A stretch of DNA of 64,000 bases, taken from a virus. Shown in pieces: positions 25,928 to 52,801 of the stretch; position 1 is the first letter of the stretch; each line of letters begins with the position of its first letter. The stretch spans positions 82,213 through 146,212 of IMG/VR virus record IMGVR_UViG_3300008267_000033. One strand, 5' to 3'. The position numbers and the translations under genes are program-made. The notes beneath the pieces were generated by a model, which worked only from the letters and a program-made list of their open reading frames with translations, was not told the DNA's origin and made no database searches.

Positions 25928-26893
25928 TTATTCGTTGGGGTTGATTTGGTTTGCTAGGGGTAGGAATGTTCGTCGCAGTTCTTGGGCATGCTGCCTCAAA
26001 CCATCTGGATCTAGCTCTCTGCTGTCCACAAATACCAAGTTTTGATCCATCCACTCTTGATATTCAACTGTATTTATAGCTCTAGCAAATAAATTAGCAT
26101 AATAGTCCACTATTACTCGGTCTGTACGAGGGGGCAGCACAAGATTCCAGGCTGCAAATACATTGATTCCAGGGGCAATTTTTCTCAACAGCGGGATGGT
26201 TGGCATTTGTGCAACTTTGCGATCTCCAGTGATACCAATAGCTCGGACTCGACCTGCTTCTATTAGCGGACGGGCTATGGCCAATGGCATGATACCAAAT
26301 TCTGTGCCACCTGCACTACTGGCCACACTTTGCAGGGCTTGTGCAGGGCCGTTGAATTGTATGTGTTTTATCAGGCTGCGATTGCCTGAAGTTTTCATCA
26401 TCAAGTATTCAAGGGTGATTCGGTGTGCGCCCGATCCCACAGCAATAAACACAGGCTGCTGTGTGGTGCGTAGCAGCGTGGCAAACTCATCTGGAGTGTT
26501 CACAGCACTAGTGGCAATGGCAACAAGCACTAGTGGACTTTTGCCTATTGTGAGCACATCTTCAAATGTGTTATACTCATAGCGTTTGATGTCACGCTGC
26601 CAGATATCCTGCGTGACATACTGACTCATGTGATTGAGTGCAGCAATGGTATGCCCATCTGGCAGCACAGTCATAAGGTGATTCATGGCAATCACACTGT
26701 CTGCCCCTGCACGATTTTCCACAACAAACGTGATCTTTTTGTTTGTGCGGCTGATGATCTGTGACAGTTTTCTAAATGCTATTTCGTTGCCAGCACCAGG
26801 TGCGTTGCCTATCACAATTGTGACAGGGCGTGTGGGTTCCCAGGCAGCAGCCATGATAGGAACCAGTAATAAGAGTAGGAGTAGTCGTTTCAT
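25928..26893 (-). CDS. Tricarboxylate-binding Bug-type periplasmic protein
   Basis: 321 residues, the normal length of the family. M-K-R-L-L-L-L-L-L-L-V-P-I-M-A-A-A is a Sec signal peptide. The mature protein has the Bug signature: P-V-T-I-V-I-G-N-A-P-G-A-G-N-E at the ligand-binding loop, N-R-A-G-A-D, the D-G-H-T-I-A segment and a C-terminal helix. Such proteins bind tri- or dicarboxylates in the periplasm for a TctAB-type tripartite transporter. No TctA/B genes are near, so the host permease may be used, or the protein may be ligand scavenging. Very unusual in a phage. Confidence 0.85.
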   Translation of the reverse strand: MKRLLLLLLLVPIMAAAWEPTRPVTIVIGNAPGAGNEIAFRKLSQIISRTNKKITFVVENRAGADSVIAMNHLMTVLPDGHTIAALNHMSQYVTQDIWQRDIKRYEYNTFEDVLTIGKSPLVLVAIATSAVNTPDEFATLLRTTQQPVFIAVGSGAHRITLEYLMMKTSGNRSLIKHIQFNGPAQALQSVASSAGGTEFGIMPLAIARPLIEAGRVRAIGITGDRKVAQMPTIPLLRKIAPGINVFAAWNLVLPPRTDRVIVDYYANLFARAINTVEYQEWMDQNLVFVDSRELDPDGLRQHAQELRRTFLPLANQINPNE

Positions 26894-46913: not shown

Positions 46914-47114
46914 ATGTATCAAGCACTGACAGAAAATGTGTTGTCTGCACTGAGCCCTGCAGAAACAAATCAATTGTTTGCATTGATCACAGACAATGTA
47001 GATCTATTTGACAAAATCATGCCGCAGTCGCCATTTATTGCGCATGTCAAACACGGCAAACCCTTGGATCATGTGTTGATGCACATGTATCAGAGCTGGT
47101 TGATCACACGCTGA
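46914..47114 (+). CDS. Small helical conserved phage protein
   Basis: 66 residues, helical with amphipathic pattern ([18 protein letters not shown]). AAGGA lies before two adjacent ATGs; the second was chosen for spacing. It follows the adhesin gene in the same plus-strand unit, and ends convergently 11 bases inside iscA. Might be a fibre chaperone, by position only. Confidence 0.5.
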
Positions 47115-47424
47115 AACTTGATCCACAACCGCAGGTTGAAACTGCTTGTGGATTGTTGATCACAAAGCTGGCGCCCATGGCATCTTCCTTGTAGTCGATT
47201 GCTGAATCTTGTAGATACTGCATGCTCATGGCATCTACTACAACTTTGACTGAGTCGTAAACAAAGTCAAAATCATCTTCGTTTTGTGCTTCATCAAATG
47301 TGAAGCCATAACTGAAGCCCGAGCATCCCCCACCTTGTACAAACACACGCAACATCAAGTTGGGATTGCCTTCTTCGGCCACAAGTTCTTTTAATTTGTC
47401 AACGGCTGCTGGTTGTAGGTTCAT
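47104..47424 (-). CDS. A-type iron-sulfur carrier (IscA/ErpA family)
   Basis: 106 residues, normal for the family. The three Fe-S ligands are C34 (G-G-G-C-S-G-F), C98 and C100 (C-G-C-G), matching the IscA/ErpA/HesB pattern. It would carry clusters to target proteins. A ferredoxin gene and two radical SAM genes are in the window, so the carrier may serve phage Fe-S enzymes. One-base overlap with superoxide dismutase upstream. Confidence 0.9.
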
Positions 47425-47984
47425 TATAGTCTTTCATTGCAAACGTCCCAGTCAATAATTTTCCAAATATTGTCCAGGTACTGTTCTTTGTCGCTTTGGT
47501 AATCCAATGCCCAAACATGCTCCCACCAGTCGACCAGCACACAGATATCTGTACGCACAGCATGGTTGGCAATGGTTTTGATGTCGCCACTGGTACTCAA
47601 GTACACCCAACCTGAGCCTTGTATGGCCATGGCTGCAGTTTTGAACTGTTCACGGAAATCTTCGTAGGTTTTGAACTTTTCTTCAATCAAGGCCAGCACA
47701 GCGCCACGTGGTCTGTTGGCTCCTTTTGGAGGACGAAGCTGTGGGAAAAATTTATTGTGCAAAAAATTGCCAGCACGGTTGAAATCTTTGGTGTAACTAC
47801 CACCAGTGTTGCCCGTATCGGCATTGTAGCGTTTGGCGTAACCTTTGGCTAGATTTTCATAATGATAATTGATACTGTCTGCACTCATCACCGGTGCCAG
47901 ATCCTTGGGCCCGTAGGGCAGGGGAGTGGTTTCCAACTTGGCCGGTCTTGTGCTGGCTTCTACTAGGTCAATATGTTCACGCAT
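47424..47984 (-). CDS. Fe/Mn superoxide dismutase with capsid-targeting-like N-terminus
   Basis: 186 residues. Metal ligands: H41 (N-Y-H-Y-E-N), H76 (G-N-F-L-H-N-K-F-F), D152 and H156 (D-W-W-E-H), the classic order. Host enzymes start a few residues before L-P-Y; here a 20-residue extension begins [10 protein letters not shown], with the LVE/A pattern of capsid-targeting sequences. So the enzyme might be packaged in the head and delivered early, as inference. An ATAAATAT box is 4 bases before the ATG. Confidence 0.85.
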
Positions 47985-47988
47985 AGGA

Positions 47989-47996
47989 ATATTTAT
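47989..47996 (-). promoter_or_regulatory. TAAATA box overlapping the IF-1 stop codon
   Basis: Minus-strand ATAAATAT; the TAA is the IF-1 stop, and the sodB-like ATG at 47984 follows after 4 bases. Confidence 0.45.
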
Positions 47997-48211
47997 CTAC
48001 GTCGAGTGATTCGACCACGTGTCAAATCATAGGGACTGAACTCCATGGCAACTCGATCACCCAGCAATACTTTGATATTGTGTGTGCGCATCTTGCCTGA
48101 CAAATACGCAATTACTTCTGTGTTGACATCATCCAGTAATACTCTAAACATGGTGTTGGGCAGTATTTCTTTTACCCGGCCCTCCATGCTGATTGTTTCT
48201 TCTTTGGCCAT
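47993..48211 (-). CDS. infA: Translation initiation factor IF-1
   Basis: 72 residues, full-length as in bacteria. [33 protein letters not shown] and [11 protein letters not shown] are the OB-fold IF-1 signature, nearly position by position with host IF-1. It binds the ribosomal A site and biases initiation. A phage copy could favour phage mRNAs such as leaderless or short-leader messages. TAATG overlap with the gene upstream. Confidence 0.93.
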
Positions 48212-50412: not shown

Positions 50413-50724
50413 TTACCTAAATAGGATCAGGGCCATCAGTGAGGCTTGAACTATAAACCCTAGGCCGATGGTGATGATGTTCAGGGTGTCTTTCAGCACA
50501 ATGGCTCGCAGGAACAGCAATACAAGTCCTGCCCAAAGAAACGCCACCACATCCAAACTGGGCACATGATCACTGAGTCCGGTCATCAAGGCCAGCAAAC
50601 TGGGCACTGTGGCACAGTGCAACACAATGGCTGCCAACCAGCCCAGGGTGTCTGCTGAAATCTTACTCAAATGATTGGTCAAAAAATCGCGGATTATTTG
50701 CAAGTTAAAGGGCCAGGTGTTCAT
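50413..50724 (-). CDS. Small three-span membrane protein
   Basis: 103 residues with three hydrophobic segments (L-G-W-L-A-A-I-V-L-H-C-A, L-D-V-V-A-F-L-W-A-G-L and I-I-T-I-G-L-G-F-I-V) and few charges. Common in T4-like phage genomes; function unknown. Directly downstream of the SleB-type hydrolase with a 4-base overlap, so a lysis-related or membrane-modifying role is possible. Confidence 0.55.
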   Translation of the reverse strand: MNTWPFNLQIIRDFLTNHLSKISADTLGWLAAIVLHCATVPSLLALMTGLSDHVPSLDVVAFLWAGLVLLFLRAIVLKDTLNIITIGLGFIVQASLMALILFR

Positions 50725-51296
50725 GAACGTTCTCCATAAAAAATGTGACGACCAATTTGGTCAATTTTGGGCTTGCGCCAGTTGGGATTTACATAATCAG
50801 CATGATAGTATAGGGCATTTTTCATGCCGGGCAATCGGAAGTTTTCCAATAATACTTTTTTGGCCACTAGTTCGCTTTCTTGCCACATGGGCTTGTGTAC
50901 TGCTCGAATCTTGTGATTGCCTTCGCAAAACCACGAAAACTGGCAAACTACCCGTTCGTAAAACACGTTCTTTTGATAAACCACACCACATACAGTGTTG
51001 GCAAATCTACCGTCTTCTACTCTATTTAACGTGACCTGCGCCACTGCTACTTTGCCTTCAAAAGGCTCTGAGGCTGCTTCCCAATAGATGTTGCGTGTTA
51101 GACAATCCAGTTGTCGCAATCGGTCTTCGGCCGACACATAGCCTGCCATGCTGGCTGCTCGGTCTTGTTTCAACACATTCAACCGTGCCTGGCACACGTT
51201 CCATACAATTGAGATTACCAAAAGTAGTCCCAGTAACTTGATAACTCGAGATGACCACTCAGCCAAAGCATTGGGTCGCTTTATATTCAATTTCAT
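50721..51296 (-). CDS. SleB-type cell wall hydrolase, membrane anchored
   Basis: 191 residues from the ATG at 51296 (a longer in-frame form enters non-coding sequence). One N-terminal membrane anchor (V-I-K-L-L-G-L-L-L-V-I-S-I-V-W), then the hydrolase_2 domain: N-I-Y-W-E-A-A-S-E-P with the catalytic Glu, A-V-A-Q-V-T-L-N-R-V, and F-S-W-F-C-E-G-N. Cleaves peptidoglycan, seen in spore-cortex hydrolases and phage enzymes. It is separate from the GH19 endolysin and probably serves entry, remodelling or superinfection control. Confidence 0.8.
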   Translation of the reverse strand: MKLNIKRPNALAEWSSRVIKLLGLLLVISIVWNVCQARLNVLKQDRAASMAGYVSAEDRLRQLDCLTRNIYWEAASEPFEGKVAVAQVTLNRVEDGRFANTVCGVVYQKNVFYERVVCQFSWFCEGNHKIRAVHKPMWQESELVAKKVLLENFRLPGMKNALYYHADYVNPNWRKPKIDQIGRHIFYGERS

Positions 51297-51334
51297 TCGA
51301 TTTCCTTTAGAAAGCCAATACGTGGCCATACGCG

Positions 51335-51575
51335 GATGCCCGAGAGAATCACGTTGACAGGTTAGGGGTTGAGATGAGCATAGATAGACCTCGGGCCTCC
51401 TTGGCATACTCGTTTAAGACAAGCTCGCGTCCTGAGAAATGAGCCTGTCCAATTCTAGTTGTCAACGAAGAGACTTTCCGAGAGCCTCTTTCGAACACCA
51501 GCGCCTGCTTGGACAAACATCGTTTGGTGTCACGGGTACTTGTTTTGTTCAATTGGACAAGATACCAATCAGCAG
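51335..51575. ncRNA. Candidate structured RNA with nested helices
   Basis: In a 395-base gap, complementary pairs are GCCCGAG (51339) with CTCGGGC (51390 region), GACAaGCTC (51418 region) with GAGCcTGTC (51441 region), GTCCAATT (51448) with AATTGGAC (51555 region), and inside the last pair AAGAG with CTCTT and ACACCA with TGGTGT. The last set is nested like a multibranch RNA. A minus-strand ORF of 112 codons at 51349-51687 also spans it, but has no motif. Type unknown; no tRNA, tmRNA or RNase P signature was found. Confidence 0.45.
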
Positions 51576-51692
51576 TAGAAGATCCTATTAGATTGCAATT
51601 TGTTTTTCTACCACCACTTGTACTTAGTTTTTTTGACTCTAGTACTGTCAAAAAACTGTCAAAATGGTGTGTTTTTGTCATTAACATAGCAG

Positions 51693-52022
51693 TTAACTCT
51701 GTTGATCAATCAAGTGTCGCTTGTCAGTGATTGTAGCCCAATGATCTGAGTCAGGCTGCGCCGGCTGCCGTTTTGAGATCACTGGCCAAAGTTTAGCCAA
51801 GCGTTGATTGATTTCAATAAATTCTCGTTGATTTTCTGGCACATCTTCCTCAGTAAAGATTGCATTTACCGGACATTCAGGGATACACACAGCACAGTCA
51901 ATACATTCGTCAGGATCAATCACAAGAAAGTTTGGGCCCATATGGAAACAATCTACTGGACAAACATCAACACAATCTGTATAACGACATTTTACGCAGG
52001 CTTCGCCTACCACATGAGTCAT
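51693..52022 (-). CDS. fdxA: 7Fe ferredoxin (FdxA type)
   Basis: 109 residues. Nine Cys: C9, C12, C17, C21, C25 and C40, C43, C46, C50, the arrangement for one 3Fe-4S and one 4Fe-4S cluster (extra C12). Length equals host FdxA (107). A low-potential electron carrier; it could serve the radical SAM enzymes or other redox enzymes in the window. Overlaps nadE by 4 bases. Confidence 0.9.
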
Positions 52023-52801
52023 GTAATTTTCTGGTTAATTTTGCATACCGGGATAGGTTCCATCTTGTGCAGATTTCTTGCACGTATTTTGCGATACTGT
52101 TTGACCAGCTTGGCCTCGGCAGCAGTAGCATACCGACCAATTTCTTCATGGGTGTCTTGTAACATGGCCTGTTCCAATTCAGGATAAGTCATGCCTAGCT
52201 GATCTTCATCGTTACGTCCGTCTGCCCAGAGTCCATCTGTGGGTGGTGCATTGATGATGTCCTGTAATAGACCCAGTTCCTGGCCTATTGCCCACACTTC
52301 AGTTTTCATACAGTCACCAATGGGTGAAATATCCACGCCACCATCACCGTATTTGGTAAAGAATCCCACACCAAAATCTTCTACCCGGTTGCCTGTGCCT
52401 ACCACAATGCCACCATGACTCTGTGCAATTTGATACAGTGTCATCATGCGTAGTCGGGCTCTGCTGTTGGCAAATGCCAGCTCCGAATCTCCAAACGGTG
52501 TGAGCTTTTTTTCAAATGCTGTGAACACTGCGGTCAAGTCCATGCTCATGTGTGTGACGTTGTCGGGGTGGTGTTCCAGCAGCCAGGTGGCCTGTGCTGA
52601 ACTTAGATTGTTCAGTCTTGGATTCTGGCGAATGGGCATTTGAACCACAATGGTTTTTAGGCCAGTTTGCGCACACAAGGCACTCACAACGGAACTATCA
52701 ATTCCGCCTGAAATACCCACTACCAATGAATCCACTCGAGCCTTGCGGGCATAGTCTCGAATCCATTTGCTAATGTGTCTGATACGTTGTCGAGGTGTCA
52801 T
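52019..52801 (-). CDS. nadE: NAD synthetase, ammonia-dependent
   Basis: 260 residues, normal length. S-G-G-I-D-S-S at residues 31-37 is the PP-loop; [10 protein letters not shown] and K-T-E-V-W-A are the deamido-NAD-binding parts; D-G-L-W at about 196 and D-E-D-Q-L-G-M are typical. Converts nicotinate adenine dinucleotide to NAD with ATP and ammonia; the glutaminase domain is absent. Supports NAD pools during infection. Its upstream neighbour overlaps by 4 bases. Confidence 0.88.

Follow-up and report, generated by a model that had tools for sequence, protein, structure and literature searches.

The window analysed here, a 64,000-nt stretch of a 146,212-base virus record, contains on its minus strand a gap between a ferredoxin gene and a gene for a SleB-like cell wall hydrolase, or endolysin (Table 1). 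The hydrolase matches PF07486 with an E-value of 3.3e-25 and the phrog_938 endolysin family with an E-value of 3.6e-20. Its true start is the ATG at 51296; a longer open reading frame reaching 51407 was rejected because relatives do not keep the extension. A GGAG-type Shine-Dalgarno site lies at the equivalent position in most relatives.

The genes around the gap merit a brief description. Immediately upstream of the RNA are the FdxA-type ferredoxin and NAD synthetase genes (51693–52801, minus strand), and the nearest isolate homologues of the NAD synthetase are in Pelagibacter phage HTVC008M and cyanophages. A gene for a 103-residue predicted membrane protein (50413–50724, minus strand) lies downstream of the sleB-like gene, an order shared by relatives whether or not they carry the RNA; the protein has no match in Pfam or PHROG and could be a holin. 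The phage also encodes a homologue of translation initiation factor IF-1 (47993–48211, minus strand; PF01176, E 8.4e-22), adjoining a Fe/Mn superoxide dismutase (47424–47984) and an iron-sulphur assembly protein (47104–47424), and a TctC-type tricarboxylate-binding receptor homologue (25928–26893, minus strand; PF03401, E 1.4e-24).

Table 1 Features of the ferredoxin–sleB-like locus, in window coordinates
Feature	Position	Strand	Remarks
Ferredoxin gene	51693–52022	minus	Fer4 and DUF3470 domains; upstream of RNA leader
Inter-gene gap	51297–51692	minus	between ferredoxin and SleB-like hydrolase genes
5' module hairpin, TTTTTTGAC/GTCAAAAAA	51629–51655	minus	same-position hairpin precedes sleB in core-less relatives
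Conserved CTAAGTA	51621–51627	minus	start of structured domain; also in leaders of core-less relatives
Helix P1, GGTAGAA (51606–51612)/TTCTACT (51574–51580)	51574–51612	minus	pairing kept in relatives
Helix P4, GACACCA (51525–51531)/TGGTGTTC (51493–51500)	51493–51531	minus	arms read in relatives
Inner hairpin of P4, TGTTT-GTCC-AAGCA	51506–51519	minus	
Conserved RNA core, model R1	51304–51498	minus	cmsearch 133.5 bits, E 4.5e-41
Hairpin H5, AAGAGGCT-CTCGGAA-AGTCTCTT	51468–51491	minus	paired in 57/57 copies
Long-range helix P6, 5' strand CGTTGACA	51460–51467	minus	partner 51352–51359
Hairpin P7, GGACAGGCTC (51441–51450)/GAGCTTGTCT (51417–51426)	51417–51450	minus	GGAC in loop; changes on both sides
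Near-invariant 26-nt segment GAGTATGCCAAGGAGGCCCGAGGTCT	51386–51411	minus	search key; conserved in alignments
CCGAG, proposed loop-loop partner of H5 loop CTCGG	51390–51394	minus	97% of cells paired
Long-range helix P6, 3' strand TGTCAACG	51352–51359	minus	partner 51460–51467
Terminal H-type pseudoknot, CCGCGTATGGCCACGTATTGGC	51314–51335	minus	stem 1 paired in 39 relatives
Shine-Dalgarno region of sleB-like gene, AAAGGAAAT	51300–51308	minus	4–12 nt before ATG 51296
SleB-like cell wall hydrolase (endolysin) gene	50721–51296	minus	PF07486, phrog_938; 191 aa, N-terminal membrane anchor

A ferredoxin-based search identified loci sharing this gene order, and three of them (L002, L005, and L006) retain blocks of the gap at the DNA level. 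DNA-pattern scans with the near-invariant block (GAGTATGCC...AGGCCCGAGGTC) and the H5/P6 block (CGG..CTCTTCRTTGACA) returned 16, 17, 24, and 63 contigs, a few in the 24-contig set being chance matches. In a profile search over all loci, 84 met the iteration threshold; the number of unique copies extracted was 61. The family thus has about 61 distinct relatives, all from contigs of uncultivated phages reaching 349 kb in length, and profile-HMM searches place the window core within it. The window copy was itself among the 41 sequences used to build covariance model R1; the model recovered two copies left out of its building (L116 and L120) at E-values of about 1e-8. Each of the 17 records searched whole has a single full-length copy, and the 14 records of core-less relatives have none.

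Beyond this family we found no counterpart in the collections searched. A scan of a bacterial genome collection gave 16 matches, all at chance level beyond the search pattern itself, and a BLASTN comparison with isolate phages matched the gap only over 24–25 nt, at chance level. At the nearest isolate endolysin loci the inspected leaders are short, and the model search of those loci was empty. The preliminary description had reported no known RNA signature (tmRNA, tRNA, or others), and this held: ARAGORN predicted no tmRNA or tRNA gene in the window, and no Rfam 15 family reached its gathering score anywhere in it. At E-values up to 10, Rfam returned only a sub-threshold preQ1 match outside the core and three chance-level matches to eukaryotic families. 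The preQ1 riboswitch candidate (51618–51648, minus strand), which overlies the 5' module hairpin, was rejected; its 21.1 bits fall short of the gathering score of 39, and relatives differ there. No published description of the family turned up in the literature searched, which left out most subscription papers. As far as tested, what is new is this RNA family, how large it is, and its link to lysis; a structured leader on a phage gene is a known kind of element.

The fold is assembled from local hairpins, long-range helices, and a terminal pseudoknot. Of the unique copies examined, all but 7 have the TAAGTA at its start. P1 appears in relatives as GAGTAGA/TCTACTC, GAACAGA/TCTGTTC, GTGTAGA/TCTACAC, and GTGCAAA/TTTGCAC; the test of this helix is weaker in that its arms were themselves searched for. 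P4 is read in relatives as ACACCA/TGGTGT, GCACTGA/TCAGTGT, and AGTCTTGG/CCAAGGCT, by eye and unscored. H5 has two variable pairs with compensatory changes, one occurring as GC, AT, or GT and the other as AT, CG, TA, GT, or TG. P6 is paired in 94.5% of cells, with one pair appearing as A-U, G-C, and G-U. In P7, both sides change at 9/9 pairs within class A (0/500 shuffles as good); in the other class, which includes the window, 92% of cells are paired and 8/9 pairs change on both sides (0/1000 shuffles as good). The P9 hairpin is paired in 33/33 copies and does not beat shuffling (175/1000), because there are too few distinct arm pairs.

Two loop-loop contacts are proposed. The GTCC loop of the P4 inner hairpin and the GGAC loop of P7 occur together in 14 copies and are both missing from 45, with one exception lying outside the loop, and by eye L118 seems to have swapped them for UUCUA/UAGAA. 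This contact is likely, subject to confounding by relatedness and to little variation. The CTCGG/CCGAG contact is proposed only and remains unproven because both elements are nearly invariant; L116 reads CUCGGG/CCCGAG. The terminal pseudoknot stops a few bases short of the Shine-Dalgarno site. Its stem 1 is paired in 39/39 relatives as CTG/CAG, GTG/CAC, CCG/CGG, or CAG/CTG, and both sides change at all four pairs of stem 2. The arms of both stems were chosen partly by complementarity in this first count, and a fixed-column test is the fairer one; there, 89% of stem 1 and 75% of stem 2 cells are paired, and all seven pairs change on both sides. By eye, the window's own subgroup has a shorter variant of the pseudoknot.

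These results establish that the RNA fold is conserved, its helices keeping their pairing while both strands change. The single-helix tests used arms cut at sequence anchors, so that the structure did not shape the alignment. The combined-structure test used a plain MAFFT alignment of 41 sequences and six helices, in which 91.9% of cells are paired, compared with 83.5% after shuffling and 27–43% when partners are slid. The covariation score of the six helices is 0.282, against 0.139 ± 0.008 for shuffles and at most 0.068 for slid partners, and none of 500 shuffles reaches it. A stricter tree-aware column test on the plain alignment found no single pair at E < 0.05 (best 0.09 and 0.22), and four of its five strongest pairs fall inside the proposed helices. 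The helix-wise, anchor-based counting was adopted after the tree-aware run had given no significant single pair.

The preliminary description, made from the sequence alone, had read 51335–51575 as a possible structured RNA on the basis of complementary pairs denser than chance. That reading is supported, and the pairs do exist as sequence. The CGTTGACA/TGTCAACG pair holds across the family as P6. The TGTCCAATT/AATTGGACA pair (51446–51454/51551–51559) is present in the sequence, and GGATGCCCGAG/CTCGGGCCTCC (51334–51344/51390–51400) is present at 91% and found solely in the window's own subgroup. The nested hairpins at 51468–51491 and 51493–51531 are present, and both hold. The outer GTCCAATT/AATTGGAC pair proposed around them fails as a family feature, because AATTGGACAGG is part of a covarying hairpin with which it clashes. 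The claimed density also held: the interval has 4 maximal perfect inverted repeats of at least 7 nt where 1.18 are expected (equalled in 4/200 dinucleotide shuffles), and 2 of at least 8 nt where 0.3 are expected (3/200). The folding energy is only weakly unusual, with z = −1.74 for the minus and −0.32 for the plus strand. Other points also needed correction. The RNA lies on the minus strand, the interval was too small, as the RNA spans from about 51304 to at least 51627, and the element is better described as a gene leader than as a clearly separate transcript. Of the two checks that had been named, compensatory changes in helices across related phages were found as described above, and the codon pattern of an overlapping frame is taken up below; both favoured a structured RNA.

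All 60 copies with readable downstream sequence directly precede a SleB-type hydrolase gene, a gene invisible to the DNA-pattern scans that collected the copies. The RNA keeps this place even where the protein is very divergent (L219 and L221) and where a signal-peptide-like N-terminus replaces the membrane anchor, and it was never found away from sleB among copies with readable context or in the 17 records searched whole. Conserved gene order may account for part of this constancy. Core-less relatives share the 5' module, which ends in GTAAGTAAAA shortly before the sleB ATG, and in them the ATG comes immediately after GTAAGTAAAACTACC. Lineages with and without the RNA are intermixed on the sleB tree, with nine changes, at least two of them forced. 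Separately, by eye, other sleB relatives lacking the RNA (L100, L102, L109, L133, L134, L137, and L141) appear to have different structured-looking leaders upstream, such as TCCCC...GGGGA around a hairpin or GTAGT.GTTT...AAACTAC. These different leaders suggest that leader control of sleB is common.

A sigma-70-type promoter with at most two mismatches lies 62–103 nt upstream of TAAGTA in 33/53 copies, compared with 63/1200 background positions; the window's own copy has no good promoter match. TAAGTA as a phage-wide late promoter was rejected, as it occurs merely three times per strand in the window. A search of the gap for a terminator found none. Across all leaders, the Shine-Dalgarno site is predicted to be only slightly more hidden than in shuffled sequences, unpaired at 0.235 compared with 0.295 (p 0.002, uncorrected for relatedness and with pseudoknots outside the calculation). 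For the window copy the values are 0.37 and 0.33, so no extra hiding is predicted.

We propose that 51297–51692 (minus strand) is a cis-acting 5' leader controlling the timing or strength of endolysin translation, a reading that we favour with a probability of roughly 0.62. The conserved fold, its constant position before SleB-type hydrolases, and its single copy per genome are shown; the leader's regulatory role, like any ligand, is inferred in the absence of expression or functional data. The pseudoknot abuts the Shine-Dalgarno site, and it is the endolysin gene, not a particular lineage of its protein, that the fold accompanies; cis control of endolysin translation is the simplest reading. 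The leader folds compactly into a P1-closed 5' domain, the P4 hairpin, H5, P6 enclosing P7 and the near-invariant segment, the proposed loop-loop contacts, and the terminal pseudoknot adjoining the Shine-Dalgarno site. This fold would hold the ribosome site under control and so guard against lysis that comes too early or is too weak; a conformational change may then release the site, triggered by a ligand, by a protein, or by transcripts that begin at another 5' end late in infection.

The most serious rival, which remains possible, is a phage RNA that acts in trans as a separate molecule, transcribed from a promoter of its own and processed off the sleB mRNA, its position held through inherited gene order. 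The promoter-like sequence at a fixed distance, a size and loop contacts resembling those of ornate stand-alone RNAs, and the mixing of lineages on the sleB tree speak for it. However, the gap has no terminator, no copy was found apart from sleB, and the pseudoknot, whose stems change the most and yet stay paired, abuts the sleB ribosome site. It is unlikely that the element instead governs stability or processing of the sleB mRNA, as a protective 5' structure or a nuclease site; a compact fold at the likely transcript 5' end would suit such a role, but the pseudoknot beside the ribosome site would be left unexplained.

Less likely still is an RNA of intron or ribozyme type, mobile or catalytic, that entered between the shared 5' module and the start codon of sleB. 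The core does look inserted, because core-less relatives have the 5' module ending shortly before the sleB ATG, and the distribution is patchy, as the changes on the sleB tree show. Against this, Rfam searches at E up to 10 matched neither group I or group II introns nor any ribozyme family, there is a single insertion site, and no gene is interrupted. A small protein gene in the 112-codon frame at 51349–51687 can be all but dismissed. The frame is open here and in several close relatives, but substitutions fall 66/63/52 at codon positions 1/2/3, with no third-position excess, frameshifts and stops break it in two of seven close relatives (L092 and L094), it has no Pfam match, and the RNA helices covary. 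A conserved codon-position pattern, which the preliminary description had said would count against structured RNA, was not found, and the gap has no coding function.

The timing of lysis is a central phage decision, usually ascribed to holins and anchor-release proteins. An elaborate conserved RNA fixed to the endolysin gene, on contigs of up to about 350 kb, points to an RNA layer of lysis control. Under a bolder version of the cis-acting leader reading, possible but without ligand evidence, the family would be a large riboswitch-like class of uncultivated large phages that senses a metabolite or phage factor, gates endolysin translation, and so times lysis. According to a review of T4, no riboswitch had been functionally characterised there, and its authors hoped for candidates among T4 relatives (PMC3014915). 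SAM-II and preQ1-II are translational riboswitches that end in a pseudoknot, the last strand of which lies next to the Shine-Dalgarno sequence. The leader RNA shares this arrangement but differs in having no Rfam match at the gathering threshold. GOLLD and ROOL are large folded RNAs linked to phages; structures of these and other ornate RNAs are available (PMC12286853). The leader RNA is likewise large and folded but unmatched by Rfam, shorter, and bound to the leader of one gene.

Two further parallels come from T4-type phages. In T4, RNA structure hides the ribosome site of the lysozyme gene e on early transcripts, cutting synthesis about 100-fold (PMC3014915). The present leader is comparable in that structured RNA sits where translation of a phage lysis enzyme begins, but it is far more elaborate. 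Gene e has a single hairpin, and late transcripts lack its 5' half; here the conserved domain exceeds 300 nt and includes a pseudoknot and long-range helices, without an identified late promoter inside it. The autoregulatory pseudoknot of T4 gene 32 is similar as a pseudoknot in the leader of a T4-type phage gene, where it controls translation (PMC3014915). That pseudoknot controls a DNA-binding protein from a position about 67 nt upstream and has an A+U-rich tract, in contrast to the present one, which almost touches the Shine-Dalgarno site of the endolysin gene.
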